This document shows positions 7,029 to 27,037 of a stretch of DNA of 38,142 nt, piece after piece. Within the stretch, counting starts at the first letter, position 1, and every line of letters begins with the position of its first letter. The translations under genes and the position numbers were made by a program. Under the pieces are notes generated by a model. That model was not told the origin of the DNA. It did no database searches and saw nothing but the letters and a program-made list of their open reading frames with translations. Origin of the DNA: Clostridiales bacterium (GTDB taxonomy: Bacteria > Bacillota > Clostridia > Oscillospirales > JAAYOS01); NCBI GenBank assembly GCA_012520195.1, contig JAAYOS010000065.1, positions 1 through 38,142 on the forward strand. Direction: 5' to 3'.

Positions 7029-8105
7029 TTATACATTATAAGCCTGGCGAGTAAGCGAGTACAGGGTGTCGCGAATTACAGTCTGGTTGCCTCCGAATGC
7101 GAATGCACCACCGATAACATTACCATAACCGCCGTACTCTTTAACAAAGGATTCAACGATGTCTACAACCTCATCCTCAGTAGCCTCCATGGGTATAACC
7201 ATACGGACACCAATATTCAGCTTATCGCCGTACTTCTCAATAATCATGTGTCTGTCATTCATTTCCTGTGGCGTCCACGCATCTACCCCCGCTTCTATCA
7301 TAGCAGGAACGAGTATCTCATTCTTTCCGCAGCAATGGAAATCAAGATACATGCCTCTCTTATGGCAGGACTCGACCAGGCGTGACAGATAGGGGACAAG
7401 CATCTCACGACAAGTGCTTAAGGAGAAGAAGGGAGCTCTCTGTGAACCCCAGTCATCGTGGAATAGGATTATGTCTGCATCGTAGTAGGTCATATACTTC
7501 TCAAAAAGCTTATCATAGAAGTCGCAAAGCGCGTCAAAAAGACGGTGAACACTATCTTTTTCGTCATCATCTACGATTGCAAGTGCAGCATTTTCAAAAT
7601 CCATGAAGGAAATCAGACGCTCAAACAGACCATTCATGACCCAAAGTATTGTCATCCGGTCAGGGCTCAGAAACTCACGGTGTCTAGCTGCACTGCCTTC
7701 CCAGTCATATTGGTCGAGGTCAGGAAACTCTATGTATTCCTCCCATCGGGTTATATCAGGTACTTTGGGATTACCGGGCTGTACCATAGAACCGCCGACC
7801 TTCTCAACATAGACCCACTCAATACCGAAGAAATCTTTTCCTCCGGCATCTTTCAAGTCTAGCGGATCAGCATCAATAACAAAACCACGAGCTATATTAT
7901 CGGGAATGATTCGCGGTATGAGAGTGATACTGTCGAAGGCCGAAGGCATCCACAAAGGGCGCTTCCCCTCAAACAGAAGTTTGTAGTTTTCCTTCGGTGT
8001 TATTGGGGTATTGAGCTTTGGGAGCCCGGGAGCACGGGGTAGCATGGATTTAAACTCGCCGATTATCTGCATTTCTTTGTCGATGTCAAACGGAATTCTT
8101 TCCAA
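7029..8105 (-). CDS. URO-D superfamily corrinoid-dependent methyltransferase I (substrate unknown)
   Basis: This 358-residue protein belongs to the uroporphyrinogen decarboxylase-like methyltransferases (MtaA/MtbA/MtvB relatives). Such enzymes move a methyl group between a methylated substrate and a corrinoid protein using a zinc ion. Visible features are the HDDWGSQRAPF stretch (residues 216-226), the FHCCGKN motif with H257, C258 and C259 as likely zinc ligands, and a C-terminal GGAFAFGGNQTV. True haem-pathway URO-D is unlikely because the neighbours are a methyltransferase II and a corrinoid protein. Methoxylated aromatics, known substrates of such acetogen systems, are a reasonable but unproven guess. 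The start is a TTG with an AAGGGAGGG site, and a consensus promoter lies just upstream at 8152-8180. Confidence 0.88.
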   Translation of the reverse strand: MERIPFDIDKEMQIIGEFKSMLPRAPGLPKLNTPITPKENYKLLFEGKRPLWMPSAFDSITLIPRIIPDNIARGFVIDADPLDLKDAGGKDFFGIEWVYVEKVGGSMVQPGNPKVPDITRWEEYIEFPDLDQYDWEGSAARHREFLSPDRMTILWVMNGLFERLISFMDFENAALAIVDDDEKDSVHRLFDALCDFYDKLFEKYMTYYDADIILFHDDWGSQRAPFFSLSTCREMLVPYLSRLVESCHKRGMYLDFHCCGKNEILVPAMIEAGVDAWTPQEMNDRHMIIEKYGDKLNIGVRMVIPMEATEDEVVDIVESFVKEYGGYGNVIGGAFAFGGNQTVIRDTLYSLTRQAYNV

Positions 8106-8231: not shown

Positions 8232-9086
8232 CTAAAACCCCGACTGACGCTTTGCTGCAAGTACAACATGCTTGACAAGAACACTTGTGGTTACAGTACC
8301 TACTCCTCCGGGTACGGGTGTAACTGCCTCGACTATTGCATCAGCAGCTTCATAATCTACATCACCGCATAGCTTGCCTTCATCGTTTACATTGATCCCC
8401 ACATCGATGACAATTTGACCTTCACGCAGGTAGTCCTTTCCGACGATGCCAGCTCTACCGGCAGAAACAATTAGCAAATCGGCTGCTTTTGAGATGGAAG
8501 GAGTATCAACAGTTCGTGTATGGCAGACAGTAACCGTTGCATTGCGTTTTATAAGCATCAACGCAGCAGGTTTTCCTACGACAAGGCTTCTCCCGATTAC
8601 AACAGCATTCATTCCCGTAACATCGATTCCGTAATAATCCAGTATCTCCATACAGGCTTGAGGAGTACAAGGTGGGAATCCAATGTCTTCACCAGTGTAA
8701 ACACCGACCATAGAGCCATCTGTAATACCGTCCACGTCCTTTTCAGGGCGGATTGCATTTCTGATCAGGCTGTCATCAATATGTCGGGGGAGCGGTCTGA
8801 GAATAAGTATGCCGTGTACAGTTTCATCCTTATTTAGATCTTCTATCTCAGATAACAGTCTATCCTGAGGCACCTCATCGGGGAGTAGGATCTTTTTAAC
8901 TTCTACGCCTACCTTGGCACACCGATTTGACGCTCCACGTTCGTAGGATATGTCATCACCGCGCTCGCCGACTCGCACAATTGCAAGCTTTGGGACTATG
9001 CCTCTATCAGAGAGAAATGATACCTCACCCTTAATGCTTTTGTTAATAGAGGATACGACTTCTTTACCACTTAATGCTTTTGCCAT
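8232..9086 (-). CDS. folD: Methylene-tetrahydrofolate dehydrogenase FolD, cyclohydrolase residues altered
   Basis: This 284-residue FolD-family protein interconverts methylene- and methenyl-THF using a pyridine nucleotide. Family features are HGILILRPLP, DVDGITDGSMVG, the nucleotide-binding VVIGRSLVVGKPAALML, and the terminal PGGVGTVTTSVLVKH. Aligned by its flanking tyrosine and VGV/VGF segment, the cyclohydrolase lysine (K56 of E. coli) corresponds to A52 (Y48-E-R-G-A52). The usual glutamine of the VQLPLP segment is L96. D119 is retained. Two of the three recognised cyclohydrolase residues are therefore missing, which suggests a dehydrogenase-only enzyme. The adjacent fchA gene, 13 bases upstream, would supply cyclohydrolase activity. 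It is the last gene before the promoter of the methyltransferase module. Confidence 0.95.
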   Translation of the reverse strand: MAKALSGKEVVSSINKSIKGEVSFLSDRGIVPKLAIVRVGERGDDISYERGASNRCAKVGVEVKKILLPDEVPQDRLLSEIEDLNKDETVHGILILRPLPRHIDDSLIRNAIRPEKDVDGITDGSMVGVYTGEDIGFPPCTPQACMEILDYYGIDVTGMNAVVIGRSLVVGKPAALMLIKRNATVTVCHTRTVDTPSISKAADLLIVSAGRAGIVGKDYLREGQIVIDVGINVNDEGKLCGDVDYEAADAIVEAVTPVPGGVGTVTTSVLVKHVVLAAKRQSGF

Positions 9087-9099
9087 ACTATCTCCTTTC

Positions 9100-9729
9100 T
9101 CAGCCCAGCTTATCGAAGACGTATTTAGTCACTTCATCTGCAAGCGGCACGTATTTCTCAAGTAAGTCGTTTGCTCTCTTGTTAGCATTGCTTGCATATT
9201 CTGTGTCGGTCATGGATTTTGTGTTTATAAACACATTAAAACTTGCACCTACAAGTGCTGCCCGGCATAATGCCGCACCAACTCCGGCATCGCTTAATAC
9301 AAGGCTGCTACCTTTTTCCGCAAACTCCTTTTGGAGCTCTATTGCTTTACAGCAAAGCTCCATAATCTCAAGCGGAACAGAGCAGGCGTCTTTTAGGGCT
9401 GCCTCCATAATCAGTGCCCTCTCGGCCTTATCCTCATCGGTCTTCTTAGGTAATCCGTATGCTTTTGATAGTGGTTCAAAGACTTCAGCGTCGCGGTCCA
9501 CCATACGGAGTAGTTCGTTTTGAACTTCGGTCATCCTGTCCATAAGAGAAATAATATCTTGCTCAACATCTGCATACTTCTTTTTCCCGACAGTCAGTGA
9601 ACCTACCATGTTACCAAGTGCAGATCCAATTGCTCCTACATACGCAGAAGCTCCGCCCCCACCGGGTACAGGGGATTTACTAGATAGGGCGGATACAAAC
9701 TCTCTGCAACTCAGTTCCGTAAAACTCAT
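9100..9729 (-). CDS. fchA: Methenyl-tetrahydrofolate cyclohydrolase FchA (cyclodeaminase fold)
   Basis: This protein of about 209 residues belongs to the formiminotransferase-cyclodeaminase/cyclohydrolase family. It begins with the typical SCREFVSALSSKSPVPGGG glycine-rich segment and continues as a helical bundle. In acetogens and purine fermenters FchA hydrolyses methenyl-THF to 10-formyl-THF. I chose the ATG at 9729 because a GAGGTGG site lies six bases upstream and the family normally begins there; an in-frame ATG at 9744 lacks a good site. The gene lies between fhs and folD, which completes the formate-to-methylene-THF segment, and it compensates for the altered cyclohydrolase site of the neighbouring FolD. 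Confidence 0.94.
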   Translation of the reverse strand: MSFTELSCREFVSALSSKSPVPGGGGASAYVGAIGSALGNMVGSLTVGKKKYADVEQDIISLMDRMTEVQNELLRMVDRDAEVFEPLSKAYGLPKKTDEDKAERALIMEAALKDACSVPLEIMELCCKAIELQKEFAEKGSSLVLSDAGVGAALCRAALVGASFNVFINTKSMTDTEYASNANKRANDLLEKYVPLADEVTKYVFDKLG

Positions 9730-9784
9730 ATCATTCCACCTCATTTTCCCATAATCTATCTCATGTCCTGAAACTATCTAAACA

Positions 9785-11461
9785 TCAGAACAAGCCGGAT
9801 ATTCTTCCAGTCTTGTCCACATCTATTGACTCGGCAGCGGGTACCTTCGGGAGTCCCGGCATTGTCATTATTTCACCCGTGAGTGCAACAATGAAGCCCG
9901 CTCCCGCAGATAGTTTAATATCTCTAACTGTTACTTTAAAGTTCCTCGGTGATCCAAGTAGCTTTGCATCATCCGAAAAGCTGTACTGGGTTTTTGCCAT
10001 GCAAACAGGTAGATTTCCAAAGCCCAGCTTCTCCAACCTTCTTATCTGTCTACGGGCAGAGGAAAGAATTTCCACGCCTTCTGCTCTGTATACTTTGCGG
10101 CATATGTCTTTGATCTTATCTGCGATTGAACTTTCGGTATCGTAACAAAAAGTGAAATTATTCTCGGCTTCACAGAGCCGGATGACTTCCTCAGCAAGCT
10201 CTATTCCGCCTTCGCCGCCCTTTCCCCAGACCTCGGAAAGCGCTACATTTACGCCGAGTTTCCTACAGCTGTCCTCAACCAGTTTAAGTTCTGCCTCAGT
10301 ATCGGCAGGGAAGCGGTTTATTGCAACAACTGCAGGCAGGCCAAAGACATCAGTGATGTTCTCGACATGCTGCAGAAGGTTTGGTAGACCTTTCTCGAGA
10401 GCTTGAAGGTTTTCGACGTCTAGTTCCTTCTTGTCTGCACCCCCGTGCAACTTCAAGGCACGAACAGTAGCCACAACAACAACTGCGTCGGGTACTAGTC
10501 CAGCAAATCTGCACTTGATATCGAAGAATTTTTCAGCACCGAGATCCGCACCAAATCCAGCCTCGGTGATAACATAGTCGGAAAGTTTTAGAGCCATACG
10601 TGTGGCTACGACCGAATTGCATCCATGTGCTATATTTGCAAAGGGTCCGCCGTGAATAAATGCAGGGGTGTGCTCCAATGTCTGGACAAGGTTAGGTTTT
10701 AGGGCATCCTTTAGAAGCGCAGCCATGGCTCCGGCTGCGTTGAGATCTCCTGCAGTCACAGGATCATTGTCATAGGAGTATCCAATGACGATCCTACTGA
10801 GCTTTTCTTTTAGATCCTCAAGGTCCATTGCCAGACAAAGAATAGCCATTATCTCACTTGCAACAGTGATATCGTAGCTATCTTCACGCGGAACTCCGTT
10901 GGTTCTTCCATTTAGTCCGTTTACTATATATCGGAGCTGTCTGTCATTCATATCGACACAGCGGTGCCAAGTGATTTGAGTAGGATTTATTCCAAGCTTG
11001 TTACCTTGGTAGATGTGGTTGTCTATCATAGCGGCCAACAAGTTGTTTGCAGCACCAACTGCATGCATATCGCCAGTGAAGTGGAGGTTTATATCCTCCA
11101 TTGGCACTACTTGAGCGTAGCCGCCACCAGCGGCACCTCCCTTAACACCAAAAACCGGTCCAAGAGAGGGCTCCCTCAGAGCCACCATCGTCTTTTTGCC
11201 AATTCTTCGCATCCCATCAGCCAAACCAACTGTGGTTGTAGTTTTGCCTTCCCCTGCGGAAGTCGGGGTGATGGCAGTGACGAGAACAAGTTTCCCGTCA
11301 GGGGTATCCTTCAGTTCATCCAGCAGGTTCAGATCGATCTTTGCCTTGTAGTTTCCGTATAGTTCAACACTTGACTCAGGGATTCCCGCAGTACGGGAGA
11401 CTTCAATGATATTTTGCATACTTGTGCTCTGTGCTATTTCGATGTCACTTTTGAAACTCAT
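9785..11461 (-). CDS. fhs: Formate-tetrahydrofolate ligase (formyl-THF synthetase)
   Basis: This 558-residue enzyme makes 10-formyl-THF from formate, THF and ATP, or the reverse with ATP gain. The nucleotide-binding loop [16 protein letters not shown] is at residues 65-80. Other family stretches include [45 protein letters not shown] and the C-terminal [14 protein letters not shown]. Length and sequence match bacterial Fhs throughout. It lies downstream of the Flx genes with a 119-base gap, and 55 bases separate it from fchA. Fhs alone does not prove acetogenesis because purine and amino-acid fermenters also have it. Its presence beside fchA, folD, metF and metV gives the whole methyl branch in one locus. 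Confidence 0.98.
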
Positions 11462-11580: not shown

Positions 11581-12489
11581 TTAGTACTCGCCGGGCATGT
11601 TGTCGAGCTCCTCCATCGAAAAGACCGGACCGTCTACACACACGTATTTGTGACCGATATTACACTTTCCACATTTACCGATTCCGCATGTCATACGCAT
11701 CTCAAGCGTTGTATAAATTCGGTTCTTTGGTATACCCATCTTCACAAAAGCATCTGACAAGGCCTTTATCATTACAGGGGGGCCGCATAGTACAGCGTAA
11801 GTGTTCTGAATATCAAAAGAGATATCATGAACAAGATTATTGGGGAAACCTACGAGTCCGTCCCATTCTGGCTCCGGATTATCTATAGTAAGCAAAAGAT
11901 CGGTGTCAGGGTAATTTGACCATCTTTCGTAATCGTACTTGAAAAGGAAATCCTTTGTGGAACGGGCTGCGAGCAGCATTTTGATGTTGCCGTATTTCTG
12001 TCTGTTTTCCGGCAGGAAAATCAGTTCAATCATTGGACGCAGCGGTGCGAGACCCAGCCCGCCAGCAACATAGAATATGTCGTGACCCTCCATCTCCTTT
12101 ATGGGGAAGCTGTTTCCGTACGGTCCCCGCAGGTAAACAATATCGCCTGGGCGTAATCTGTGAAGATTGTCAGTGACATAGCCAGTTCTTTTTATGCAAA
12201 GCTGAATAGTGTCTTCAACGATGGGGGAGGAAGCAAAACCAAAGGGGGCTTCACCGACACCCGAAACCGTTAGCTCTACAAACTGTCCGGGCTCAAATGA
12301 AATAGGTTTCGCTGGAGATAGTATAAATGTTTTTACATCCTGAGAGTCGGAAGTGGTCTCCTGGATTATATCTAGGATCTTTGTCTTTATTGGAATATAG
12401 GGATTTAAGCATGCACATCCTAGATCCTTGGTTTCGGTAGTGACACTGCTAGCATTGTAGTTATTAGGGTTTCTTTCTGCTTCGAACAT
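11581..12489 (-). CDS. flxA: FlxA-like FAD/NAD(P)-binding electron-transfer subunit (hydrogenase gamma/AsrB/PyrK family)
   Basis: This 302-residue ferredoxin-reductase-type flavoprotein would exchange electrons between NAD(P)H and Fe-S partners. The FAD domain contains EPGQFVELTVSGVG and RPGDIVYLRGPYGNSFP. The NAD(P) domain contains YVAGGLGLAPLRPMI and CGPPVMIKAL. A C-terminal [2Fe-2S] motif has C268, C273, C276 and C284. The family includes sulfhydrogenase gamma, sulfite reductase AsrB and PyrK. FlxA is preferred because the neighbours are two Fe-S proteins, an MvhD-like protein and HdrA, the order seen in Flx-Hdr clusters. The N-terminal 35 residues before the FAD domain contain two cysteines of unknown role. 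Its ATG directly follows the flxB stop. Confidence 0.85.
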   Translation of the reverse strand: MFEAERNPNNYNASSVTTETKDLGCACLNPYIPIKTKILDIIQETTSDSQDVKTFILSPAKPISFEPGQFVELTVSGVGEAPFGFASSPIVEDTIQLCIKRTGYVTDNLHRLRPGDIVYLRGPYGNSFPIKEMEGHDIFYVAGGLGLAPLRPMIELIFLPENRQKYGNIKMLLAARSTKDFLFKYDYERWSNYPDTDLLLTIDNPEPEWDGLVGFPNNLVHDISFDIQNTYAVLCGPPVMIKALSDAFVKMGIPKNRIYTTLEMRMTCGIGKCGKCNIGHKYVCVDGPVFSMEELDNMPGEY

Positions 12490-13533
12490 CTATACACACT
12501 CCTCCGCCTTTGATACCTTTGAAAATATGGTCCGGTCAAGAATGTCCTGGACAGCTCTTAGTATATTTAGGCCGCCCGGACAGGCGCGAATGCAACGTCC
12601 GCAACCGGTACAAGCTATTACAGAACAGTTCTTTGGAACGTACATATATTTGTGCAAAACACGTTGTCTAAAGCGTTCACGTTGTGTTGCACGTGGATTG
12701 TGTCCAGAGGCGTGCAGTGTGAAACTTGGGTACATGCAGCTATCCCAACACCTGTTACGACAGGTTACTCCACAATCCTCTACATCGCGGAATTCAAAGC
12801 AGTGGCATGTTGGACATATGTAGGTGCAGATTCCACACTCTAGACAGCTTTCAGAGTATAACTCCCATGGTATTTCTTCAAATAATTCTTTCTCGTCTGC
12901 ATCAATTCTAAGATTCTTTGTGGTACTCTCATTGACACGACTGTTGATTTCGGAAACTTCTGGACTACCGCTCTCTAACACTTGTGCGTCAAATATTGAA
13001 AACAGACTCTCATACTTTTCGTCTAGAATATAGAGAAAAACGATATTATTGTCATTGTCTATGGATATAAACGCATCACTATAGTCTGAAAAGGTCATAT
13101 CGATACCCAACTCATCACAGAAACAGCCAGGCTTCTTGTGTACACAGCCCATGCCTATTACAATGAGGGATTCCCGGCGTCTGAAATAGTATGGGTCAGA
13201 AAACTTATTGTTTTCCTTGGAAAAGACTTTATCCATCACATTTATTGCTGTAATGTCACAGGGCTTTACACCGATCAGTATCGTAGGCTTCGGAGTATCG
13301 GGGACATCTATCCCGTCATCGGATATGCGTAATATAGTCTCAACACGCGGGAAGAGTATCTCCTTCGGTGATTTGTAGGGTAACTCATCGCTCAGGTCTA
13401 TCTGGGCGGGATCAACTATGTCTGTATAATCGAGAGTCCCGTTGATCCTTGAGGGTGCAACTACCCTGTAATCTCCAAACAGTTTGCCTATGCCGTCATG
13501 AAATGCGCTACGACTCATCTTGAGGATTATCAT
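12490..13533 (-). CDS. flxB: FlxB-like Fe-S electron-transfer subunit (hydrogenase beta/AsrA family)
   Basis: This 347-residue protein belongs to the 4Fe-4S dicluster family that includes sulfhydrogenase beta and AsrA. The N-terminal two-thirds has the family features GVKPCDITAINVMD and GMGCVHKKPGCFCDE. The C-terminal part carries two cluster motifs, CLECGICTYICPTCHC from residue 230 and CTGCGRCIRACP from residue 308, with additional cysteines between them. It would relay electrons between FlxA and the other subunits. No hydrogenase catalytic subunit or sulfite reductase is present in the window, so a Flx-type role is inferred from context. It overlaps flxC by four bases and abuts flxA with no gap, indicating translational coupling and a shared complex. 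Confidence 0.83.
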   Translation of the reverse strand: MIILKMSRSAFHDGIGKLFGDYRVVAPSRINGTLDYTDIVDPAQIDLSDELPYKSPKEILFPRVETILRISDDGIDVPDTPKPTILIGVKPCDITAINVMDKVFSKENNKFSDPYYFRRRESLIVIGMGCVHKKPGCFCDELGIDMTFSDYSDAFISIDNDNNIVFLYILDEKYESLFSIFDAQVLESGSPEVSEINSRVNESTTKNLRIDADEKELFEEIPWELYSESCLECGICTYICPTCHCFEFRDVEDCGVTCRNRCWDSCMYPSFTLHASGHNPRATQRERFRQRVLHKYMYVPKNCSVIACTGCGRCIRACPGGLNILRAVQDILDRTIFSKVSKAEECV

Positions 13534-14453
13534 ATCCCTTCACCTCCGAGAAAGCCTGTATCTCTGTCGGTCTGATCGAAACTATTCATAGCAGATGGCA
13601 AATCCGCATTAATGCCTGCACGAAAGTCGTACTGGTCTTCGATAAATCTGTTAATTTCATCGTATATGTACTTAAGACTTACTCCGGAGGGGCAGACATT
13701 CTCACAAGCACCACAGGTAACACAGCGGCCAGCGAGATGCATTGCTCTTGTGAGGTGAAATGCAATTTTGTTACCTGTATCGACATCTCTCTGATGCCAG
13801 TTTGTCATCTTTCGGTCAACAAAACAGGATTCGCAGTAACAGCCCGGACATGCCTGACGGCAGGAGTAACATAGAATACACTTATCAATCTCTCTTAAGA
13901 ATCTGTTACGACGGTCTTCTCTACTGCTATCGGCATTGAAGTCGACAAAGGTGTCGGTAGATGGCGGGGAGGGTAGACCAATAAACTCTTTTCCTCCATC
14001 AGCCGCAACAGGATAGTCCCAAATTGCTGGCACTGTTGATGTACAACCCAGGCACCCATGTGCAAGTACCCCATCCCGATTTAGAACACCGCCACATTCG
14101 ATTCCGATTATCGTAATGTTTTCTCTTTCAAGTTGGTTTTCGGCAATTAGATTTACAATAGAGCGTGTATCGCAGGGCTTTGCGACAACTGCGACCTTTC
14201 CATCAAATCTCTTGAAGTAGGGTGCAAGGTTACGCCAGCAATTCTCATTCCATACAAGCTTTTCGGCCTGTTCGGGAGATCTTGCAAATAGCGGAATGGG
14301 GGAGCCTCCAATGTCATCCTCCTGAAACCCGATAACGACATCGACCGTGTCAGAAGAGAGGAGCTCCTTTGCTATCAGACGAATGCACCGTTCCTGTTCT
14401 TCGAAGTCCTGTACAACCCCAGGGGAGTCATTTTGCTTCAACTTATCGCCCAT
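13530..14453 (-). CDS. flxC: FlxC-like Fe-S electron-transfer subunit
   Basis: This 307-residue protein is related in layout to flxB. An N-terminal domain with VVAKPCDTRSIVNLI and GCLGCTSTVPAIWDYP precedes two cluster motifs: CILCYSCRQACPGCYC from residue 192 and CVTCGACENVCPSG from residue 244. Similarity in layout to FlxB suggests an old duplication, as in other Flx loci where both B and C are Fe-S proteins. It is expected to be a cytoplasmic electron relay in the Flx-Hdr assembly. It overlaps flxB by four bases and flxD by eleven. The C-terminal 45 residues, after the second cluster, have no recognised domain. Confidence 0.78.
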   Translation of the reverse strand: MGDKLKQNDSPGVVQDFEEQERCIRLIAKELLSSDTVDVVIGFQEDDIGGSPIPLFARSPEQAEKLVWNENCWRNLAPYFKRFDGKVAVVAKPCDTRSIVNLIAENQLERENITIIGIECGGVLNRDGVLAHGCLGCTSTVPAIWDYPVAADGGKEFIGLPSPPSTDTFVDFNADSSREDRRNRFLREIDKCILCYSCRQACPGCYCESCFVDRKMTNWHQRDVDTGNKIAFHLTRAMHLAGRCVTCGACENVCPSGVSLKYIYDEINRFIEDQYDFRAGINADLPSAMNSFDQTDRDTGFLGGEGI

Positions 14454-14910
14454 CTATGCTCACTCCCTTCACATCGACCGCAATATCTCTCGGGGGCAGG
14501 GCAGGGCCCAGCTTCCGTATTTTCTCTGTAACTTCCTCAACTACATCTGCAAATCTACCGCCCTCTGAAGCAGAGACCCAAGTAAAGTGTACTCTATCTT
14601 CTCCAAAACCGCAAACTGAAAGCAAATGCTTGAGTACAGAAAAGCGTCTTCTAGCATACATGTTTCCGGTAAGATAGTGACAGTCGCCCGGGTGACAACC
14701 TGACACCAAGACACCGTCAGCTCCGTCAACAAGAGCTTTTATTATGTATTGGGGGTTGATCCTCCCTGAGCAGGGAACACGGATTATCCTTATACTCGGT
14801 GGATACTGCAGCCTACTCGTTCCGGCCAAATCAGCACCTGCATAGCTGCACCAGTTGCAGAGGAAAGCAATAATTGTTGGGCACCAATTCTCTTGTAGTT
14901 TATCTGGCAT
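14443..14910 (-). CDS. mvhD: MvhD-family [2Fe-2S] protein (FlxD-like)
   Basis: This 155-residue protein belongs to the MvhD/FlpD family that docks electron-donating modules onto HdrA. It has the characteristic AFLCNWCSYAGADLAG near the N-terminus, then VPCSGR and SGCHPGDCHY. Cysteines at 18, 21, 47, 72 and 77 are those expected for [2Fe-2S] binding. In methanogens MvhD links the hydrogenase to HdrA; in Flx clusters the fourth gene plays that role. It starts six bases after the HdrA fusion stop and overlaps flxC by 11 bases, placing it physically between the Hdr and Flx groups, as its bridging role would predict. Confidence 0.92.
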   Translation of the reverse strand: MPDKLQENWCPTIIAFLCNWCSYAGADLAGTSRLQYPPSIRIIRVPCSGRINPQYIIKALVDGADGVLVSGCHPGDCHYLTGNMYARRRFSVLKHLLSVCGFGEDRVHFTWVSASEGGRFADVVEEVTEKIRKLGPALPPRDIAVDVKGVSIDGR

Positions 14911-14916: not shown

Positions 14917-17900
14917 TCACCTGCTTTCCCTTCTGCGTAATAGGTAGTCAATCTCATTAATGATTTGACTGTCACTAAATCCGCCGATGTCGATTGCGCC
15001 GCACCTGCAGTTTGCTGCGCAAGTACCGCAACCCTTGCAGAGTACGTCATTGACGACTGCTTTCTTTACCTTTCTGCCTCTTATAGTCACATCTTCGACA
15101 GTTATTGCTCCATAGGCACAGACTGCTTCACAAGTTCCACATGCAGTACAATAGTTTGTATCTACGTGAGCTATAGTGCCCTCAGTTTCAAGGGATTCCT
15201 TAGAAATTACGGTTGCTGCTCTTCCAGCGGCTGCAAGACCCTGGATCAAACTCTCGCGTATATTTCGAGGAGAGTGTGCAAGGCCGCATACATAGACCCC
15301 TTCAGTGGCAAAGTCAACCGGTCTTAGCTTGACATGGGCCTCAAGGAAAAACCCATCCTGAGTTGTGGGAACCTTAAGAAGCTGGGCAATCTGCTTATTG
15401 GCATCTTCGTTGGCCTCGACGGCTCCGGCCAGTACAACCATGGACGCATCTATGGTGATATTTTCAGACAGCTCTTCGTCAAAGACAGTAACCGTAAGAG
15501 TACCGTCTTGGCTAGCACTGACCATTGGCTTTCTGTTTTCCTCGTATCTAATGAATTGGACTCCCATAATACGTGCTTTGCGATACTGCTCCTCGTACAT
15601 ACCATAGGACCTCATATCGCGACAGAGTATGGTAATATCCGCATCGGGATTCAGTCTCTTTAGTGCAACTGCATTTCGTAATGCTTGATTGCAGCACACA
15701 CGACTACAGTACATGCGTGGTTCTTCACGTGATCCGACACACTGTATCATAACTACACGGTCTGCCTGCAAAAGCGAAGGATCGGATTCAAGGAGGGCCT
15801 TATCAAGTTCGAGTTGAGTTATAACACGATTATCCTCACCATATAGGTACTCATTGGGCTTTCTTTCATGTGCACCGGTAGCAACAACCGTTACTCCGTG
15901 TCTGATAGGTGTTGAGACATTGCCCGAACGGAGAGTCGTAGCGAAGTTTCCGACATAGCCCTCAATCTTCTCGACTTCTGTATTCAGGTGTACCTTTATT
16001 AGTCTATTTGCGTTTACATCTTTGACTAATCTTCTTAGATAGTTTTGTATTGGACGCCCCTCGAAGGTGGCATTGAGATGTAATGCATTTCCGCCCAATT
16101 GAGAGCTTTTCTCAACAATAACAGTCTCAAATCCCATGTCCGCAAATGCAAGCGCCGCACTCATACCTGCAACACCGCCACCTATTATCAGTGCCGAGGG
16201 CTCAACAGGAATCCGTTTTGTGTAAAGCTCATTGGAAAGCGATACTTTTCCTACGGCCATACGTACAAGGTCCTTTGCTTTCTCGGTAGCCGACCTCTTG
16301 TCATTCATATGTACCCATGAGCACTGATCTCGGATGTTTGACATATTAAACAGGTAAGGATTTAGTCCGGTCTTTCTCAAGACATCCTGAAACAGCGGTT
16401 CGTGTGTTCTAGGTGTGCAGGATGCTACAACCACTCGGTTAAGGTTATGTTCCTGGATACGCTCTGTAATTTGCTTTTGGGCATCGACAGAACAGGTATA
16501 GAGATTCTCTTCAACATGGACGACAAACGGTAACGATTCGGTATAGCGGCATACTTCGGGTACATCAACATACCCACCAATGTTGATACCACAGTGGCAA
16601 ACAAAGACTCCTATACGTACAGGCTCTCTTGAAACATCTCTCTGGGGTACGGTTTCAACCGGTTTAAAGTATTCACTATACTTGGCGTTATCCTCGGTAA
16701 GCCCGCTTACCATACCCGCTGCAACTGCGGCAGCAGCGCTTGCCTCAATTACAGTTTCGGGTATATCCTTTGGCCCTGCGGCAGCGCCGCACGCTAATAT
16801 ACCTGGAAAGGATGTATTAGGTGCCTCAAAATCATCACAGTGAATGAAACCGTATCTGTCGGTCTTAACACCTATTTTTTTCATCAACTCAGCCGTTTCG
16901 TCGTTGGCCTTGAACCCCGTTGATAGCACAACCAGATCGTAATCTGAATAGCGTACCGAGCCGTCTGGTCCAACACTGCTCAGTTTAAGTGAGCCATCAT
17001 CGTTCTCATTGATTTCACCGACACGGCTTCTGATAAAGTTTACTCCATACTTATCGCGCGCGGACAGTACATACCTATCAAAGTCCTTACCGAATGCCCT
17101 CATATCCATATAGTAAATATCTATCTGCTCCACAGAGGGGAGGTGCTCTTTAGTGATCTGTGCTTCTTTTACGGCATACATGCAGCAAACAGAGGAGCAG
17201 TAATCTACATCACACTGGTGATCTCTCGAACCTACACACTGAATAAAAGCGATACGTTTAGGCGCACGCCCGTCACTCATGCGTTGAACGTGTCCCGAAA
17301 AGGGACCGGAAGCAGACAGTATGCGCTCATACTCCATAGCGGTGACGACATCTTTGTATCTGCCATAGCCTAATTCATATGGGATCTTGTCAGTCATATC
17401 GCATCCTGGAGTGAGTATTACAGAGCCGACATCTAATTCAATGACTCTGTCCTTGGCTTCATGGCAGATCGCACCGCTTTGACATGCCTCTTCACACGCA
17501 CGGCATTCACAACAAATGGAACAGTCGACACATCTCAAAGCTTCTGTCTTAGCCTGTTCATCGGTCAGTCCAAGCTCAACCTCATCGAAAGTACTCTTCC
17601 TACGGTCTAAATCAATCATGTTCATTGATGCACGATGGAAGTAGGGCACGTTCTTAAGGTCGACCCGACTAATATCTGTCTCAGGCAACAGGTGAGGGTC
17701 AACAGGTAAATCTTTGTTTTCTAGAAAGTTGATTATCGCTTTAGCGGCGCGGTTACCGGCAGCAATGGCCTCTATTACCGTTGCTGGTCCGGTCTCAGCA
17801 TCGCCACCCGCGAAAATATCGGAGACCCTGGTTTTACAATGCTCTGCTTCAATATTGCCGTACTTGTCGAAACAGTCAAACCCGGCTTCACGGATTGAGT

Positions 17901-19395
17901 TATCGACCTTCTGGCCAATGGCAACAATTATAGTATCCGCCTGGATCGTAAATTCTGATCCCTTAACAGGAACAGGCCTGCGTCTACCAGATGAATCGGG
18001 TGGTCCAAGCTCATTTTTCAGACAGCGAAGACCGATTATTCTATCTTCGGAGTTCTCATCAATAAGAACCTCGGTCTGTGTTGTCAAAAAGGAGAATTTC
18101 ACTCCCTCTTCCACTGCATGTGCAACTTCCCACTCATTTGCGGGCATTTCATTTTCTGTTCTGCGGTATACAACAGTAACGTCAGAACCAAGGCGAATTG
18201 CCGAGCGTGCAGCGTCCATAGCAACGTTTCCGCCACCAATGACAACCACTTTCTTGCCAATATTAGGTGTATTACCTAGATTTAACTCACAAAGAAAATC
18301 TATGCTAGAAAGTACGTTCTTATTATCTTCACCGGGGATACCCATCTTGGAATCGACGTGTGCGCCGATTGCCACAAAGAAAGCCTTATAGCCTTCCTTT
18401 CTGAGGTCGTCAAATTTCAGATCCTTACCTATTGGGGTGTTATAACGGATCTCAACCCCAAGTTCTTCAATCAAATCAATTTCATGCTGCAACACCGATT
18501 TGTCAAGTCTATAGTCGGGAATACCAATTTTAAGCATTCCTCCACCGACAGGAAGCTTCTCAAATACTGTGACCTTATAGCCCTCTTTAGCAAGCGTATA
18601 AGCACAGTTAAGACCAGCTGGACCTGCACCTATAACAGCGACCTTTGTATCCTTCGGCTTTATATCAAAGTCAAGTGAGTCGCCATCCTCCGATTCGCGC
18701 GCCTTATCTGCGATGAATCTCTTAATTGCAGCGATTGAGATGGGTTCTTCTACAAACCGACGAGAACAGTTTTCTTCACAAGGATGGAAGCATACACGAC
18801 CTAGTACTCCCGCAAAGGGCGTAACTCTTCTTACAACATCGAGTGCCTCCGAATAACGCCCCACACCGGTCAGAGAAACATACCCGTGTGCATCGATATG
18901 TGCAGGGCAGTTATATTTACAGGGTGAGGAGCCCTTTTTGTCTATTACAACTTTATTGGGTGCTGCTTGTGCGTAGGGCTTGTATACGGCATGTCTATTG
19001 CCAAGTCCCATATCAAACTCACTTTTCTGTTCAATGGGACAGACGAGAGTACAGTCGTCACAACCCTTGCATTTCTCCTCATCGATGTACCGCGCTTTTC
19101 TACGTATGGTAACTTTGAAGTTGGGAAACTCTCCCTTTATATCGATGACATCACTCCATGTCATGGTATTTACAAGGGGATGGTTAAATGTTTCGGTGAC
19201 TTTAGGTGCAAGGATACAGGCGGAACAGTCATTTGTAGGAAAGGTCTTATCCAACTGTGCCATTCTTCCACCAATGGAGGGTGACTTTTCGACCAAAAAT
19301 ACGGGGATGCCCATTTCGGCCAAATCGTGTGATGCCTGGATTCCGCCGATACCTCCGCCTACGACAAGAACAGGCTTCTTAATTTTCTGAGACAT
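14917..19395 (-). CDS. hdrA: Giant HdrA-GltD-HdrA fusion flavoprotein (1492 residues)
   Basis: This is one continuous frame with three parts. Residues 1-150 start an HdrA unit: FAD motif VGGGIGG, the HdrA signature CSACILAPKV (57-66) and a CKGCDDCTLVCP cluster (109-120). Residues about 155-560 are an inserted GltD/NfnB-like NAD(P) oxidoreductase: CKYNCPAHID, CFHPCEENC, GAGPAGLNCAY (256-266), GGGNVAMDAARSA (387-399), YRRTENEMPA and FAGGDAETGPATV. The first HdrA unit then resumes with CRACEEACQSGAIC and CVGSRD-YCSSVCC (720-738). A second complete HdrA starts at about 925 with FVCHCGINIGG, has GGGVAGMSAAL (1072-1082) and CVGSREEPRMYCSRVCC, and ends in two ferredoxin clusters (1416-1426, 1453-1463). 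HdrA is the flavin-bifurcating subunit of heterodisulfide-reductase-type complexes. The insertion implies direct NAD(P)H coupling. Confidence 0.93.
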   Translation of the reverse strand: MSQKIKKPVLVVGGGIGGIQASHDLAEMGIPVFLVEKSPSIGGRMAQLDKTFPTNDCSACILAPKVTETFNHPLVNTMTWSDVIDIKGEFPNFKVTIRRKARYIDEEKCKGCDDCTLVCPIEQKSEFDMGLGNRHAVYKPYAQAAPNKVVIDKKGSSPCKYNCPAHIDAHGYVSLTGVGRYSEALDVVRRVTPFAGVLGRVCFHPCEENCSRRFVEEPISIAAIKRFIADKARESEDGDSLDFDIKPKDTKVAVIGAGPAGLNCAYTLAKEGYKVTVFEKLPVGGGMLKIGIPDYRLDKSVLQHEIDLIEELGVEIRYNTPIGKDLKFDDLRKEGYKAFFVAIGAHVDSKMGIPGEDNKNVLSSIDFLCELNLGNTPNIGKKVVVIGGGNVAMDAARSAIRLGSDVTVVYRRTENEMPANEWEVAHAVEEGVKFSFLTTQTEVLIDENSEDRIIGLRCLKNELGPPDSSGRRRPVPVKGSEFTIQADTIIVAIGQKVDNSIREAGFDCFDKYGNIEAEHCKTRVSDIFAGGDAETGPATVIEAIAAGNRAAKAIINFLENKDLPVDPHLLPETDISRVDLKNVPYFHRASMNMIDLDRRKSTFDEVELGLTDEQAKTEALRCVDCSICCECRACEEACQSGAICHEAKDRVIELDVGSVILTPGCDMTDKIPYELGYGRYKDVVTAMEYERILSASGPFSGHVQRMSDGRAPKRIAFIQCVGSRDHQCDVDYCSSVCCMYAVKEAQITKEHLPSVEQIDIYYMDMRAFGKDFDRYVLSARDKYGVNFIRSRVGEINENDDGSLKLSSVGPDGSVRYSDYDLVVLSTGFKANDETAELMKKIGVKTDRYGFIHCDDFEAPNTSFPGILACGAAAGPKDIPETVIEASAAAAVAAGMVSGLTEDNAKYSEYFKPVETVPQRDVSREPVRIGVFVCHCGINIGGYVDVPEVCRYTESLPFVVHVEENLYTCSVDAQKQITERIQEHNLNRVVVASCTPRTHEPLFQDVLRKTGLNPYLFNMSNIRDQCSWVHMNDKRSATEKAKDLVRMAVGKVSLSNELYTKRIPVEPSALIIGGGVAGMSAALAFADMGFETVIVEKSSQLGGNALHLNATFEGRPIQNYLRRLVKDVNANRLIKVHLNTEVEKIEGYVGNFATTLRSGNVSTPIRHGVTVVATGAHERKPNEYLYGEDNRVITQLELDKALLESDPSLLQADRVVMIQCVGSREEPRMYCSRVCCNQALRNAVALKRLNPDADITILCRDMRSYGMYEEQYRKARIMGVQFIRYEENRKPMVSASQDGTLTVTVFDEELSENITIDASMVVLAGAVEANEDANKQIAQLLKVPTTQDGFFLEAHVKLRPVDFATEGVYVCGLAHSPRNIRESLIQGLAAAGRAATVISKESLETEGTIAHVDTNYCTACGTCEAVCAYGAITVEDVTIRGRKVKKAVVNDVLCKGCGTCAANCRCGAIDIGGFSDSQIINEIDYLLRRRESR

Positions 19396-19508: not shown

Positions 19509-19910
19509 CTAAATATCACTTATCACAGCATATATATCTTCTAGTCGCCGCCTCTTTGCCTCCTCTTCAATAGCTTCAAATCTTGCGGCAAGCTCGGGGG
19601 ATACATATCCCTCTCGGACGGCAAGACTTCGAAGAGCACGGATTACGTCTGCAGGGCGTGCGTCCTGGGGACAATGTGCCACACAAGTATGACAACCGCT
19701 GCATTTCCATAACTCGGCTGAGGATAGAAGCTCCTCGCGTGCCCCAATAAGAGCAAGGCGCATTATCGTCCGCGGACTATATTCCCCATCGATTTCGCTT
19801 ACCGGACATCCGGCAGTACATGTACCGCAGAGGTAGCATTGCATTAGCTTTTCACCGCCGGGTAATGTAGAGATTTCTTTCTTGAATAGAGGATTTACCT
19901 GTATTGCCAT
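19509..19910 (-). CDS. hdrC: HdrC-like ferredoxin subunit of a heterodisulfide-reductase-type complex
   Basis: This 133-residue soluble Fe-S protein has two classical [4Fe-4S] motifs: C25, C28, C31, C35 (CYLCGTCTAGCP) and C70, C73, C76, C80 (CSGCHTCVAHCP). Between them is the PRTIMRLALIG segment typical of HdrC. HdrC normally passes electrons between HdrA and the catalytic HdrB. No HdrB with CCG cysteine repeats is found anywhere in the window. HdrC here may therefore deliver electrons to MetV/MetF, which lie 49 bases upstream, or HdrB may be encoded elsewhere. A strong CCGGAGG ribosome-binding site precedes the ATG. Confidence 0.93.
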   Translation of the reverse strand: MAIQVNPLFKKEISTLPGGEKLMQCYLCGTCTAGCPVSEIDGEYSPRTIMRLALIGAREELLSSAELWKCSGCHTCVAHCPQDARPADVIRALRSLAVREGYVSPELAARFEAIEEEAKRRRLEDIYAVISDI

Positions 19911-19959: not shown

Positions 19960-20901
19960 CTAATCGCTATGGTTGCTATCGAATGTAGGCATCAATCCAG
20001 CTCTTTCAATAATGGTCGGCACGATTTTTTCCCAGCCCACAGCCATTATATGTATTCCGCTGAGACCCTCAATCTTACGTAGCCGGTCTATGATCTCTAG
20101 AGCAATTGTTATGCCTTCTTCCTCCTGGTTCTCAGAGTTACGCATCCGCTCAATCAGCTCATCAGGTATACTCATGCCTGAAACCTTCTTGGTCATCTCC
20201 ATAGAGCGCAAAGACTTATTTACAAGGATACCTGCCTGAATATAGACTTCATTATGAAGACCTAGTGATCGTACTTCACTCATCCAGCTTTCAAAACTAT
20301 CGACATCGTATATCGCCTGTGTCTGGACGAACTGGGCTCCAGCTTCGATTTTTTTCTTTAGTCGGATGATCTGGAGCTCCCGGGGATCGGCAAAGGGGTT
20401 AGTAGTTGTTCCGATAAAGAACTTAGGCATATTCTTGCCCTTTTTGCCATTAATGAAGATACTGTGATTCTTCATATCTGCAACAGCCTTGATAAGCTGT
20501 ATTGAGTCCAAATCAAAAACATTTTTTGATTGAGGATGGTTTCCCAACGACTGGTGGTCTCCCGACAGACAGAGTAAATTTCTAAGTCCAAGCGCATATG
20601 CACCAAGCAGATCACTCTGAATAGCGATACGGTTTCGGTCACGGCAGGTCATCTGTAAAATGGTTTCAACGCCCCGTGTTAACCCAATGTATGACGCTGC
20701 AAGGGAGGACATGCGCACGATTGATGTTTGGTTGTCTGTTACATTTGCTGCGTGCACAACTCCACGCAGTACATCAGCACTCTTTTCGACATGTGAAGCA
20801 TTCGAGCTCATCGGTGGTCCTATCTCTGCGGTAACTACGAACTCTCCCGATTCATAAGCTCTCTGGAGGCCGCTGATATATTCATTTTCTAAGCTTGGCA
20901 T
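19960..20901 (-). CDS. metF: Methylene-tetrahydrofolate reductase, MetF type
   Basis: This 313-residue TIM-barrel flavoprotein interconverts methylene-THF and methyl-THF. The early segment VVTAEIGPP places the conserved catalytic glutamate at E26. LCLSGDH, FIGTTTNPF and FVQTQAIYD correspond to FMN/FAD and substrate elements of the family. It lacks a large C-terminal regulatory domain, as expected for prokaryotic MetF. Its ATG directly follows the metV stop with no intervening base, which indicates a MetV-MetF pair as in acetogens. In Moorella MetFV associates with HdrABC and MvhD rather than using NADH alone. Here the neighbours are HdrC, an HdrA fusion and Flx proteins, so coupled or bifurcating electron transfer is likely but unproven. 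Confidence 0.95.
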   Translation of the reverse strand: MPSLENEYISGLQRAYESGEFVVTAEIGPPMSSNASHVEKSADVLRGVVHAANVTDNQTSIVRMSSLAASYIGLTRGVETILQMTCRDRNRIAIQSDLLGAYALGLRNLLCLSGDHQSLGNHPQSKNVFDLDSIQLIKAVADMKNHSIFINGKKGKNMPKFFIGTTTNPFADPRELQIIRLKKKIEAGAQFVQTQAIYDVDSFESWMSEVRSLGLHNEVYIQAGILVNKSLRSMEMTKKVSGMSIPDELIERMRNSENQEEEGITIALEIIDRLRKIEGLSGIHIMAVGWEKIVPTIIERAGLMPTFDSNHSD

Positions 20902-21593: not shown

Positions 21594-22907
21594 TTAATTC
21601 AATGCATCGCGTAGCGGGTAGGGCATTGAATGCGATAATTGAACAAACTTGATTCTATCCGGATCCTTATTAACGGCTAACAGTGCTTTCTTGATCCTCT
21701 CGACTTGCAGCCGTGCACGACTATTTCCGTCAAAGTGTTTACATGCGTTGTCTGGACAGACGGCAATAATTACCTGTTTGTAGTTATTCAAAGATTGAAA
21801 AACCTGTGCAACGTCAATGTTACCGCCACACGGTATTGATACGATCGAGGCATTTGTTTCACCTGCAAAGGTTCTTGCGGCAATAGCAGCTGAGTTTTCA
21901 CAGCAGAAAGCAACGGTTTGCAGTGCTTCAAGCGAATCAGGGACTTCTTCTGAGATCTCTGTAGAAGATCTAGAATGAGCAGTGTGTGAGGCACTTCCGA
22001 TTACAATAGCATTTGCTGGACAGACAGCTACACAAATTCCGCAACCGGAACAATTAGACTTGAGAACTCCCATTGCATGTGCATCGTGATTGGGTGCCAG
22101 TGCTCCGTGCGGGCATACTCGGTAGCACGTATAACAAAAAGCACATTTTTTTGCGTCAATCTCGACTGTGTTATCGGTGATTACTGCAGTGCTTCTGATT
22201 TCATTGGCGATGGAGTTTACAATCTCCTCTAGAGATAAAGATAACATAAGTCCTGTATCTATGTAGAAAACATTCCTTCTACTCGTATGGCCCTGCAAAA
22301 GGAACCAACGATTCGAATTTATTTTTCCATTATCATGTGTTCGGAGTCGCAGGGCATCAGCATAATCCAAAACACTCTCATCAGGGGAACAAGTACAATC
22401 GATGATCAGGGGAGAGGTTATATTGTAGGTATCTGTTCCGTCATCTATTGTTATTGTGCTCGTGTACCCCTCATCTGATAATGATACACTTCTATATTTT
22501 AAGAATGAAACTCCCAGGTCTCTCGCTTCATGATACAACGATTCAAGGCCAGGCATCCTGCTGCCTACTGACTTGCATAATACACAGACATGGCGTTTGC
22601 CTGAAGCAATCTCGATAGCCCGTTCTAATACAAGCTTCCATAGGTAAGGATTTGAATCGCTGTCTTTATTCAGTAACATAACAATAGTTTCTAAAGGGTT
22701 CACCTTTCGGATAAGACGCCATGCATATTGACTATCTGTGATAAAGGGGGAAACCTCAGACCGGCTTACTAGAACAACAGGGTGTTCATCCACAAGAGCC
22801 CTTGCCTCATATGGCGATGAAGCGAGTTTGATTTCAAAGCCCTCTTTTTCAAATAAATCAGCAACACCGGCGAGGTATGTGCTGTTTCCAGCTAATACAG
22901 TTTTCAT
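21594..22907 (-). CDS. Degenerate HdrA-like / 2x[4Fe-4S] ferredoxin / MvhD-like fusion protein
   Basis: This 437-residue protein appears to be a remodelled HdrA. The first 240 residues resemble the second half of an HdrA flavoprotein domain: the VCVLCKSVGSRMPGLESLYHEARDLGV stretch (written here in part) parallels CRDMRSYGMYEEQYRKARIMGV of the large fusion. The N-terminal beta-strand region (VLAGNSTYLAG) lacks the GxGxxG dinucleotide motif. A two-cluster ferredoxin follows (CAFCYTCYRVCP and CSGCGICVAVCP). The C-terminal 120 residues look MvhD-like, with AFCCENSA, SIPCGGN and VCPDNACKHF in place of CNWC, PCSG and CHPGDC. It overlaps the preceding gene by four bases. I infer that the two form one complex, possibly an adaptor between MetFV and an electron donor. 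The exact function is unknown. Confidence 0.75.
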   Translation of the reverse strand: MKTVLAGNSTYLAGVADLFEKEGFEIKLASSPYEARALVDEHPVVLVSRSEVSPFITDSQYAWRLIRKVNPLETIVMLLNKDSDSNPYLWKLVLERAIEIASGKRHVCVLCKSVGSRMPGLESLYHEARDLGVSFLKYRSVSLSDEGYTSTITIDDGTDTYNITSPLIIDCTCSPDESVLDYADALRLRTHDNGKINSNRWFLLQGHTSRRNVFYIDTGLMLSLSLEEIVNSIANEIRSTAVITDNTVEIDAKKCAFCYTCYRVCPHGALAPNHDAHAMGVLKSNCSGCGICVAVCPANAIVIGSASHTAHSRSSTEISEEVPDSLEALQTVAFCCENSAAIAARTFAGETNASIVSIPCGGNIDVAQVFQSLNNYKQVIIAVCPDNACKHFDGNSRARLQVERIKKALLAVNKDPDRIKFVQLSHSMPYPLRDALN

Positions 22908-23923
22908 TGTTGTACACCGCCCTGTCTGTTTAACTGAGCAATCCGAAGTCCAACCTCCCTCGACTGGGAGACAGTCTCATTGATAAATTTCGGTCCCGAG
23001 GCACAGCCTGCAATAAAGATATGCGTCATCTCGGGGGATTGGACGTACTCGAGGAATCCGTCTCTATTCACCCTGAGACCAGTAATGTCTGAAAGTGCTA
23101 CGTTAGACTCATTAGGGTGAATCCCGTCACAAAGAATCACGTACTCAAATGACTCCCTGGAAAGAGTTCCTTCAGTATTCTCGTAAAGTACCTCTGGTAG
23201 TTCGCCTTCAAGGACTATTCTTGCAGGGCGACAGCGGACCAGGCGAATATTGCTCTCTTCCAATTGACTGATAACGTCATGCTTATCTCCAACTGTCTGG
23301 ATGTCCATATAGAAGAAGGTAATATTGCATTCATTATAATAGTGCCTGATAACCTTTGCCATACGTGTCGCATAACTGCAGCAAACTTGTGAGCAATATT
23401 GAGACTTATCTTTAACACTACGCGAACCATGGCATAAAATAAAAGCAACGCTCGTTGGTGCTGAAGGAAGAAGAGTAGATGCAGTACGATACTTGAAAAT
23501 TCTCTCCATTTCCGTACCAGTGATCACTCTATCCGACCCGTAGATTTCAAGAGAGGCATTGATACCGGTATCGCTCTCTAAAAAACCGTTTGCCAGCACT
23601 ATTTCGGTTGCTTTTAACTCCGTAAACTTGTTGTTATGCTCTATGTAAGCCGTAAAGCCGTCTTCATCAGGCCATAAGTCAACCAGTTTTGAATTCAGTA
23701 GGATATTGATATTGCTATCTTTTTCGGTGGCTTCCCACAGGTTTCCTGTGATGCAAACACCGCATTGGTTGCATTCGGTGTCGGCTTTGCATCCATACTC
23801 CCGAACCTTACCTCCGATTTGAGGCGACAGCTCCAAAACTGTGGACTTTAATCCCTCATCTGATAAAGTTCGGGCCACAGTGCAGCCTGCAAGGCCACCT
23901 CCAATTATCAGTACATTATTCAC
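22904..23923 (-). CDS. HdrA-like FAD-binding protein (N-terminal half of a split HdrA)
   Basis: This 339-residue flavoprotein is shorter than HdrA. It has the N-terminal FAD motif LIIGGGLAGCTVA, the HdrA-like loop CNQCGVCITGNLWEA in place of the usual CSACILAPK, and the paired motif CHGSRS ... YCSQVCCSYA that corresponds to CVGSRD ... YCSSVCC of the big fusion. A late FIAGCASGPKFINE matches the second FAD contact. It lacks the ferredoxin clusters, which are instead encoded by the next gene. The start is a GTG with a GGGCGG/GGTGAT site just upstream. It is the first gene of the long minus-strand cluster, immediately downstream of the perfect consensus promoter at 23980-24008. Confidence 0.8.
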   Translation of the reverse strand: MNNVLIIGGGLAGCTVARTLSDEGLKSTVLELSPQIGGKVREYGCKADTECNQCGVCITGNLWEATEKDSNINILLNSKLVDLWPDEDGFTAYIEHNNKFTELKATEIVLANGFLESDTGINASLEIYGSDRVITGTEMERIFKYRTASTLLPSAPTSVAFILCHGSRSVKDKSQYCSQVCCSYATRMAKVIRHYYNECNITFFYMDIQTVGDKHDVISQLEESNIRLVRCRPARIVLEGELPEVLYENTEGTLSRESFEYVILCDGIHPNESNVALSDITGLRVNRDGFLEYVQSPEMTHIFIAGCASGPKFINETVSQSREVGLRIAQLNRQGGVQQ

Positions 23924-24108: not shown

Positions 24109-24645
24109 ATGAACACCGATGAGGTAATTCGCAGAGCTCTGGACCAAGGATTCTCTTTTTCAGTCCCCCTCGACCCGGCCACAATTAAATTAAGACCTGA
24201 GGTTCGGGATATGTGTGCATCAAATAGATGCCACAGCTATAACAAGAACTGGACATGTCCACCCGCAATTGGTACCCTTGACGAGTGTAGTGAACGGATA
24301 AGTCGTTACAGTCGCGGTATTTTAGTTCAGACCATGGGATACCTTGAGGATGAGTTTGACATTGAGGGAATGGAGGAAATCTCAATAAGTCACAGACATA
24401 ATTTCGCTTCATTCCACGATATTCTGATCAAAGACTTTCCCAATGCTCTATCACTCGGAGCGGGCGGCTGCACTAGGTGCGAAAAGTGTACATATCCCGA
24501 TTTGCCTTGCAGATTTCCTCACCTTGCACTATCTTCGATGGAAGGATACGGTATGATTGTGAGCGAAGTATGCAAGATGAATGGTCTTCCTTACAACTAC
24601 GGAGTAGGTACTCTGGTTTTTGTCGGCTGCTACCTACTGGACTAA
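24109..24645 (+). CDS. DUF2284 predicted metal-binding protein
   Basis: This 178-residue protein belongs to DUF2284, a cysteine-rich family of unknown biochemical role. Visible motifs are MCASNRCHSYNKNWTCPP (cysteines near residues 36, 41 and 50), GGCTRCEKCTYPDLPCRFP (four cysteines near 123-135), and a C-terminal YNYGVGTLVFVGCYLL. The cysteine spacing suggests an Fe-S cluster or other metal site. No signal peptide is seen, so it should be cytoplasmic. It is the first gene of the operon carrying the corrinoid activator, 23 bases upstream of it, which makes a role in corrinoid or methyl metabolism plausible. A longer reading frame overlaps its 3' end but belongs to the next gene, whose real start lies after this stop. 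Confidence 0.85.
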   Translation: MNTDEVIRRALDQGFSFSVPLDPATIKLRPEVRDMCASNRCHSYNKNWTCPPAIGTLDECSERISRYSRGILVQTMGYLEDEFDIEGMEEISISHRHNFASFHDILIKDFPNALSLGAGGCTRCEKCTYPDLPCRFPHLALSSMEGYGMIVSEVCKMNGLPYNYGVGTLVFVGCYLLD

Positions 24646-24668
24646 TAAATAACAAGGGGGGAGTAGAG

Positions 24669-26988: not shown

Positions 26989-27037
26989 TTATACGCTAAT
27001 AATAGCATTTTTATATCTTTGTGATGGGGGTACGGTT

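Follow-up and report, generated by a model that had tools for sequence, protein, structure and literature searches.

A fusion of HdrA with glutamate synthase was named HdrL in 2009 (PMC2702500). The architecture of the Moorella HdrA was detailed in 2022 (Kremp et al., PMC9430772), and the idea of a self-heterodimeric HdrA, with Moorella as an example, appeared in the same year (PMC9012536). Since 2014 the third reactant of the Type IV (Hdr-type) methylene-tetrahydrofolate (methylene-THF) reductases has remained unidentified; menaquinone is now proposed for Moorella (PMC13040438). Here we examined a 38,142-nucleotide stretch of DNA from a Clostridiales bacterium (contig JAAYOS010000065.1; the window), in which an initial annotation had described an HdrA-GltD-HdrA triple fusion. 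This hdrA/hdrL gene product (P0001, 1492 residues) is encoded at 14917..19395 on the minus strand, as are all features below unless stated otherwise. The fusion architecture itself is common and already published, for Moorella HdrA (PMC9430772, PMC9012536) and as HdrL (PMC2702500), contrary to the rarity implied by the initial annotation. What we regard as undescribed is its setting: MetVF, HdrC, MvhD and putative FlxABC with no HdrB in the genome, together with an HdrC that is truncated, menaquinone genes that went undetected and an insert whose motif is of the NADPH type. No description of the Flx-linked, HdrB-less form was found in a literature search that covered few subscription papers.

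Moorella thermoacetica HdrA, part of a Type IV reductase (HdrCBA-MvhD-MetVF), resembles P0001 in domain order, with GltD cutting the first thioredoxin reductase (TrxR)/ferredoxin unit. It also resembles P0001 in lacking an inserted ferredoxin in its second unit, in the complementary placing of Cys197 and the N-terminal domain, and in its MvhD and MetVF neighbours. It differs in having HdrB and no Flx, in keeping both Glu/Lys (E/K) pairs intact, and in an insert motif that reads CLES and not YRR; its identity to P0001 is ~43%. HdrL1-3 of Desulfobacterium autotrophicum HRM2 (PMC2702500) are alike by description, being HdrA/glutamate synthase fusions adjoining MvhD, but their partners are DsrABC and Fdh, and some are selenoproteins. 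Type III HdrA, or HdrA9-11, of ANME-1 and Bathyarchaeota (PMC12054007, PMC9012536) also have their inserted ferredoxin domain interrupted by GltD/NfnB; they differ in being archaeal and are described with a single HdrA unit and no second half.

An intact triple fusion

The minus strand was translated without a stop over 1492 residues (predicted 163.9 kDa), and the plus strand of the same stretch was closed by many stops. Pfam and NCBIfam models assigned both ends of the protein to HdrA2 and residues 148-666 to GltD/StnC/PRK12771-type modules. The nearest solved chains by sequence were the M. wolfeii/thermolithotrophicus HdrA (5odc) and, for the insert, NfnABC/StnC. Four Rossmann motifs were found (FAD at G13, G256 and G1072; NAD(P) at G387). 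Counting motifs gives nine [4Fe-4S] clusters, three FAD sites and one NAD(P) site for the protein, against the eight clusters counted in Moorella HdrA by Kremp et al. (PMC9430772). The domain order is that of the Moorella-type fused HdrA: a TrxR domain with an inserted ferredoxin cut by GltD, followed by an N-terminal domain, a second TrxR domain and a C-terminal ferredoxin. These results confirmed that P0001 consists of HdrA half 1 interrupted by a GltD/StnC-like oxidoreductase, followed by HdrA half 2, in one intact frame as initially annotated.

A homologue in a metagenome-assembled genome of the same genus was 78% identical across residues 1-1492. The best 80 loci of the species collection, from at least 16 named phyla, showed 41–78% identity over most of the length of P0001. 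More than 100 full-length homologues from at least 16 phyla were found, with 41–63% identity across phyla. Strong matches were present in 53 of 398 genomes drawn from one neighbouring phylum, many being full-length fusions and others shorter double HdrAs. A search of a plasmid collection returned partial matches only. Because the same-genus homologue spans the entire protein and so many other full-length homologues exist, an assembly join, which the initial annotation had named as a possible refutation, or a pseudogene fusion is excluded, and no point in support of either was found.

Two complementary HdrA halves

Residues of the two halves were numbered by alignment to M. wolfeii HdrA. The first part of half 1 (residues 1-148; 18952..19395), delimited by motifs, HdrA alignment and cysteine conservation, contains the FAD Rossmann motif GGGIGG, C60 as the equivalent of Cys197, and the first inserted-ferredoxin cluster (C109/112/115/119). 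The second part (residues 622-920; 16636..17532), placed by alignment and conservation, contains C622/C625, the second inserted-ferredoxin cluster (C628/631/634/638), the bifurcation pair E690/K743 (E356/K409 in M. wolfeii) and the TrxR cluster (C720/733/737/738). Half 1 keeps the FAD domain and both inserted-ferredoxin clusters and has no N-terminal domain and no C-terminal ferredoxins. Half 2 (residues 925-1492; 14920..16623; alignment and structure prediction) carries the N-terminal domain (C933/935/968/993/1025), an FAD site (G1072), a TrxR cluster (C1219/1230/1234/1235) and the C-terminal ferredoxins (C1416-1426 and C1453-1463). The description of this part as a second full HdrA did not hold, since half 2 is without Cys197 and without any part of the inserted ferredoxin, and D1198/R1240 stand where the bifurcation residues would be.

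The same division of parts was found among relatives. In a 78-row alignment these cysteines were all but invariant: C60 was kept in all 73 filled rows and no row had Cys at the corresponding site of half 2, and the N-terminal-domain cysteines were present in 78/78 rows, in half 2 only. The inserted ferredoxin was confined to half 1 and the C-terminal ferredoxins to half 2. Cys197 is the partner ligand of the HdrA N-terminal cluster (PMC9012536), and we infer by homology that C60 contacts the N-terminal cluster of half 2, forming a composite cluster; its ligands and those of the inserted ferredoxin were fully conserved among relatives. The E/K pair was intact in half 1 of 114/118 relatives and in half 2 of 98/118, P0001 not being among the latter. 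The reverse of P0001 was seen in the HdrLs of L072, L081, L086 and L088, in which the K409 equivalent of half 1 is Glu and half 2 keeps Lys.

Relatives had in-frame TGA codons at two HdrA positions, those of Cys197 and of the N-terminal-domain Cys13 (L053:5238, L055:16257, L058:4964 and L053:10991), as well as in MvhD of L085 and L044; these codons probably encode selenocysteine. Genes split between the halves were considered as proof of a heterodimer and rejected: the apparent split of L053 results from a TGA within the frame, taken to be selenocysteine, and that of L065 from a single in-frame TAG, and neither was used.

P0001 thus holds a single complement of HdrA accessory domains and, besides these, a second flavin domain. 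This distribution over complementary halves supports the initial reading, in which two HdrA units are joined covalently into an asymmetric pair and only one of them carries the insertion, and the two halves would fold as a built-in HdrA heterodimer. AlphaFold2 models covered residues 1-1200 (pLDDT 88.3, pTM 0.80) and 640-1492 (pLDDT 86.2, pTM 0.84). The model of residues 5-900 aligned with HdrA 5odi over 420 residues at 1.9 Å with the insert looped out (VIA Z 48.3), and that of 924-1487 with the whole HdrA chain 5odc (2-651) over 556 residues (VIA Z 32.0).

The phylogeny of the halves, suggested in the initial annotation as a check, was inferred from the flavin domains. Half 1 of all HdrLs grouped with the first halves of double HdrAs (SH-aLRT 99), nearly all second halves made up a separate clade (95–97), and single HdrAs fell outside both; the exception was the divergent split pair of L084. 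The two halves of P0001 are 28% identical to each other, compared with 42–47% to archaeal HdrA. The separate clades and these identities rule out a recent tandem self-duplication of one HdrA. Insert-free double HdrAs were placed among the HdrLs, indicating that HdrA pairing predates or accompanies gain and loss of the insert. Double HdrAs (ANME HdrA3/4, Sporomusa HdrA and neighbours of HdrL) consist, like P0001, of two fused complementary units. Those beside HdrL genes (~1010–1060 residues; L063:15123, L070:15474, L044:19156, L032:2280 and L046:2265) have the same complementary halves, in the same two clades as those of P0001, but no GltD insert.

A StnC-like insert in half 1

The insert (residues ~149-621; 17533..18951), delimited by models and structure alignment, separates the two [4Fe-4S] motifs of the inserted ferredoxin and enters at the equivalent of position 291/292 in M. 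wolfeii HdrA. A GltD-like oxidoreductase does interrupt half 1 as initially proposed, but its bounds of about 155-560 needed revision: together with its C-terminal extension the insert matched StnC/NfnABC subunits over residues 153-638, more than a bare GltD, and we set its end at ~621 because the C622/C625 extension belongs to the StnC/PRK12771-type module. The model of residues 153-638 gave VIA Z 48.7 to StnC (8oh5) and 50.2 to NfnABC (9bov). Among solved structures, StnC of StnABC and NfnABC (9bov, 9n5u) come closest to the insert, its C-terminal cluster extension included; they differ in being fused to NuoG/FdhF-like domains, whereas the P0001 insert is fused to HdrA. The invariant or nearly invariant C622/C625 probably complete the distal cluster of the insert with C159 and C163, as the StnC-like coverage suggests.

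By alignment, the FAD-proximal cluster is ligated by C202, C206, C210 and K225. K225 was invariant (118/118) and aligned with K170 of StnC and, in bifurcating NfnB, with a Glu, a correspondence from alignment only. The Glu that serves bifurcating NfnB as fourth proximal-cluster ligand is thus absent from P0001, which has the StnC-type Lys. The StnC flavin (G256 marks the FAD site here) has been reported to be non-bifurcating (PMC10482914). Since K225 corresponds to K170 of StnC, we take the insert to be a port for electrons rather than a second bifurcation site; K225 disfavours a bifurcating Nfn-type insert. The NAD(P) site (GGGNVA at 387) is accompanied by a YRR 2'-phosphate motif, the same as in NADPH-bound StnC, and the insert is probably an NADP(H)-specific port.

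Gene neighbourhood and proposed electron routes

The minus-strand gene order, mostly with small gaps, is QmoA-like, F4-MvhD, MetV, MetF, HdrC, HdrL, MvhD, FlxC, FlxB, FlxA, FTHFS, FchA, FolD. Downstream of the fusion lie MvhD/FlxD of the FlpD family (14443..14910; Pfam, E 1.3e-55), a FlxC-like Fe-S protein (13530..14453; models, syntenic in relatives), a FlxB-like protein of the AsrA/HydB family (12490..13533) and a FlxA-like FAD/NAD(P)H oxidoreductase with a [2Fe-2S] motif (HydG/AsrB/PyrK family; 11581..12489), the latter two by models and synteny. The FlxA reported nearby is thus one of the Flx-like genes adjoining the fusion (11581..14453). The FlxA/B/C/D assignment rests on fitting superfamilies and conserved gene order, with matches at superfamily level and not to a Flx-dedicated model. 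A co-directional formate-THF ligase (9785..11461; Pfam) and FolD and FchA, the methylene-/methenyl-THF enzymes (8232..9744; homology), follow.

Upstream are HdrC (19509..19910; Pfam/NCBIfam), with a short C-terminal tail and no HdrB partner, MetF (19960..20901; PF02219) and a MetV-type protein, the sole copy in the genome (20902..21573; PF12225, methylene-THF reductase C-terminal). Beyond them, at 21594-23923, is another HdrA pair, reduced and split over two genes: a half-1-like FAD protein without inserted ferredoxin ('QmoA-like'; 22904..23923; homology, synteny and tree) and a reduced half-2-like protein without N-terminal domain, fused to an MvhD domain ('F4MvhD'; 21594..22907; models, synteny and alignment). 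In most Flx-class relatives the same two genes stand ahead of MetV/HdrC. Divergent from the methylene-THF reductase genes, on the plus strand at 24109-29446, are genes for a DUF2284 protein, a corrinoid activase resembling RACo and a MetH that has no activation domain of its own, likely a RACo-dependent methionine synthase.

MetV, MetF, MvhD, HdrA and HdrC are encoded together as in Type IV methylene-THF reductases, but the HdrB with two CCG domains is missing, and the system is a variant rather than a canonical member. Relatives, syntenic in Bacillota, Spirochaetota, Calditrichota, Synergistota and others, fell into a Moorella-like class (HdrC-HdrB-HdrL-MvhD-MetV-MetF) and the class of the window, with Flx and without HdrB. 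One genome (G344; L159/L160) has two clusters of the former order, with equal fusion length and motif. No HdrB was found near 18/27 Flx-linked loci, 13 of which also had MetV/MetF. The HdrB CCG domain (PF02754) had no match in the whole genome (96% complete), with 12/14 control genomes positive, and HdrB was also not found in the genomes of L009, L011 and L012. The HdrC tail after the second cluster measured 51–74 residues in the HdrB-less class (n = 8), compared with 80–113 where HdrB is separate (n = 46) and ~320 where HdrC and HdrB are fused; this shortening argues that the interface with HdrB has truly been lost. Neither menB nor MqnA/D had a match in the genome, which speaks against menaquinone as the partner here. 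RnfC is present in this genome (G000, at C167). The described FlxABCD-HdrABC resembles this set in having FlxABC and MvhD feed an HdrA, as the Flx-like genes here would; in its known form HdrB and a partner of the DsrC type are also present, in contrast to HdrL and MetVF without HdrB here.

With moderate confidence we propose that a variant of the Type IV methylene-THF reductases has P0001 as its central subunit for electron transfer, with NADH entering via Flx and NADP(H) via the insert. Electrons from NADH would pass from FlxA through FlxB/C and MvhD to the C-terminal ferredoxins and on to the half-1 FAD, where E690/K743 would mark the bifurcation site. One stream would run through a TrxR cluster to HdrC and, HdrB being absent, directly to MetV/MetF. 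The other would pass through the composite cluster, in which C60 of half 1 would complete the N-terminal [4Fe-4S] cluster of half 2, then through the inserted ferredoxin to the non-bifurcating insert FAD and NADP+. The two pyridine-nucleotide ports, possibly specific for NADH and NADPH, foreseen in the initial annotation fit the NADPH-type YRR motif, with specificity taken from motif comparison; the roles of Flx and insert likewise rest on motifs. Least certain are NADP(H) rather than ferredoxin as third partner and the net direction of flow. From textbook potentials, NADP+ is a feasible low-potential partner if driven by the reduction of methylene-THF, and reversible operation would be expected. 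More tentatively, HdrL may couple NADH oxidation via Flx to reduction of both methylene-THF and NADP+ without HdrB, ferredoxin or quinone, acting as methylene-THF reductase and energy-coupled transhydrogenase in one.

A Moorella-like use of the fusion is possible though doubtful here; in it the insert would be the NADH entry, ferredoxin the low-potential partner via MvhD/Flx or the inserted ferredoxin, and Flx a second donor module; YRR would then not signify NADPH preference. Moorella HdrA, of the same architecture, oxidises NADH (PMC9430772). However, locus L161 (1487 residues, 162.8 kDa), taken as Moorella HdrA because it matches the published mass of 162.8 kDa and all four published residue positions (E696, K750, E1204 and K1246; Kremp et al., PMC9430772), has the acidic motif CLES and not YRR. 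StnC, with YRR, binds NADPH, and ferredoxin did not serve Moorella as second acceptor (PMC13040438). YRR was found in 26/27 Flx-linked loci, compared with 24/53 loci without Flx (Fisher p 4.6e-6 by rows). Three points weaken the case for an NADP(H) port coupled to Flx. The association spans 4–5 independent tree contrasts, is suggestive only and is not independent evidence of coupling; the YRR and CLES calls were each calibrated on one protein; and some Flx-free, HdrB-type loci also have YRR, so that YRR alone is no marker of a second nucleotide.

Operation mainly in reverse, which is compatible with the proposed Flx and insert routes, seems unlikely: methyl-THF from neighbouring corrinoid methyltransferases would be oxidised together with a low-potential co-reductant (confurcation) to yield NAD(P)H. 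Adjoining the THF genes at 5538-8105 are genes for a URO-D-like methyltransferase, a methyl-THF:corrinoid methyltransferase and a corrinoid protein, a probable methyl-group entry system, in line with reverse flow. The acetyl-CoA synthase beta subunit was also not found in the assembly, but the enzyme is present in the same-genus genome (L009) and in most class members, so that its absence here may be a gap, and the pathway may run in either direction. We consider it quite improbable that bifurcation is absent altogether, with Flx and insert as alternative NADH and NADPH donors on one Fe-S wire to MetVF in a dual-specificity methylene-THF reductase. NADH to methylene-THF (~-200 mV) is downhill unaided, E/K is lost in half 2, and no bifurcation was seen in S. 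ovata; half 1 nevertheless retains the E690/K743 signature found in nearly all relatives, and the full conservation of inserted-ferredoxin and composite-cluster ligands also weighs against a single wire.

The branch described here offers an apparently quinone-free system with few candidate partners, in which HdrB and, in this genome, detectable menaquinone genes are missing and a dedicated NADH module and an NADPH-type motif are added. Single, double, split and GltD-inserted HdrAs provide a natural series from a symmetric homodimer to a covalent asymmetric dimer. The gene set suggests an answer to how carbon-fixing Type IV methylene-THF reductases obtain electrons: if the coupling to NADP+ is true, the GltD insert would, in this branch, bind their unknown third partner, a second pyridine nucleotide.

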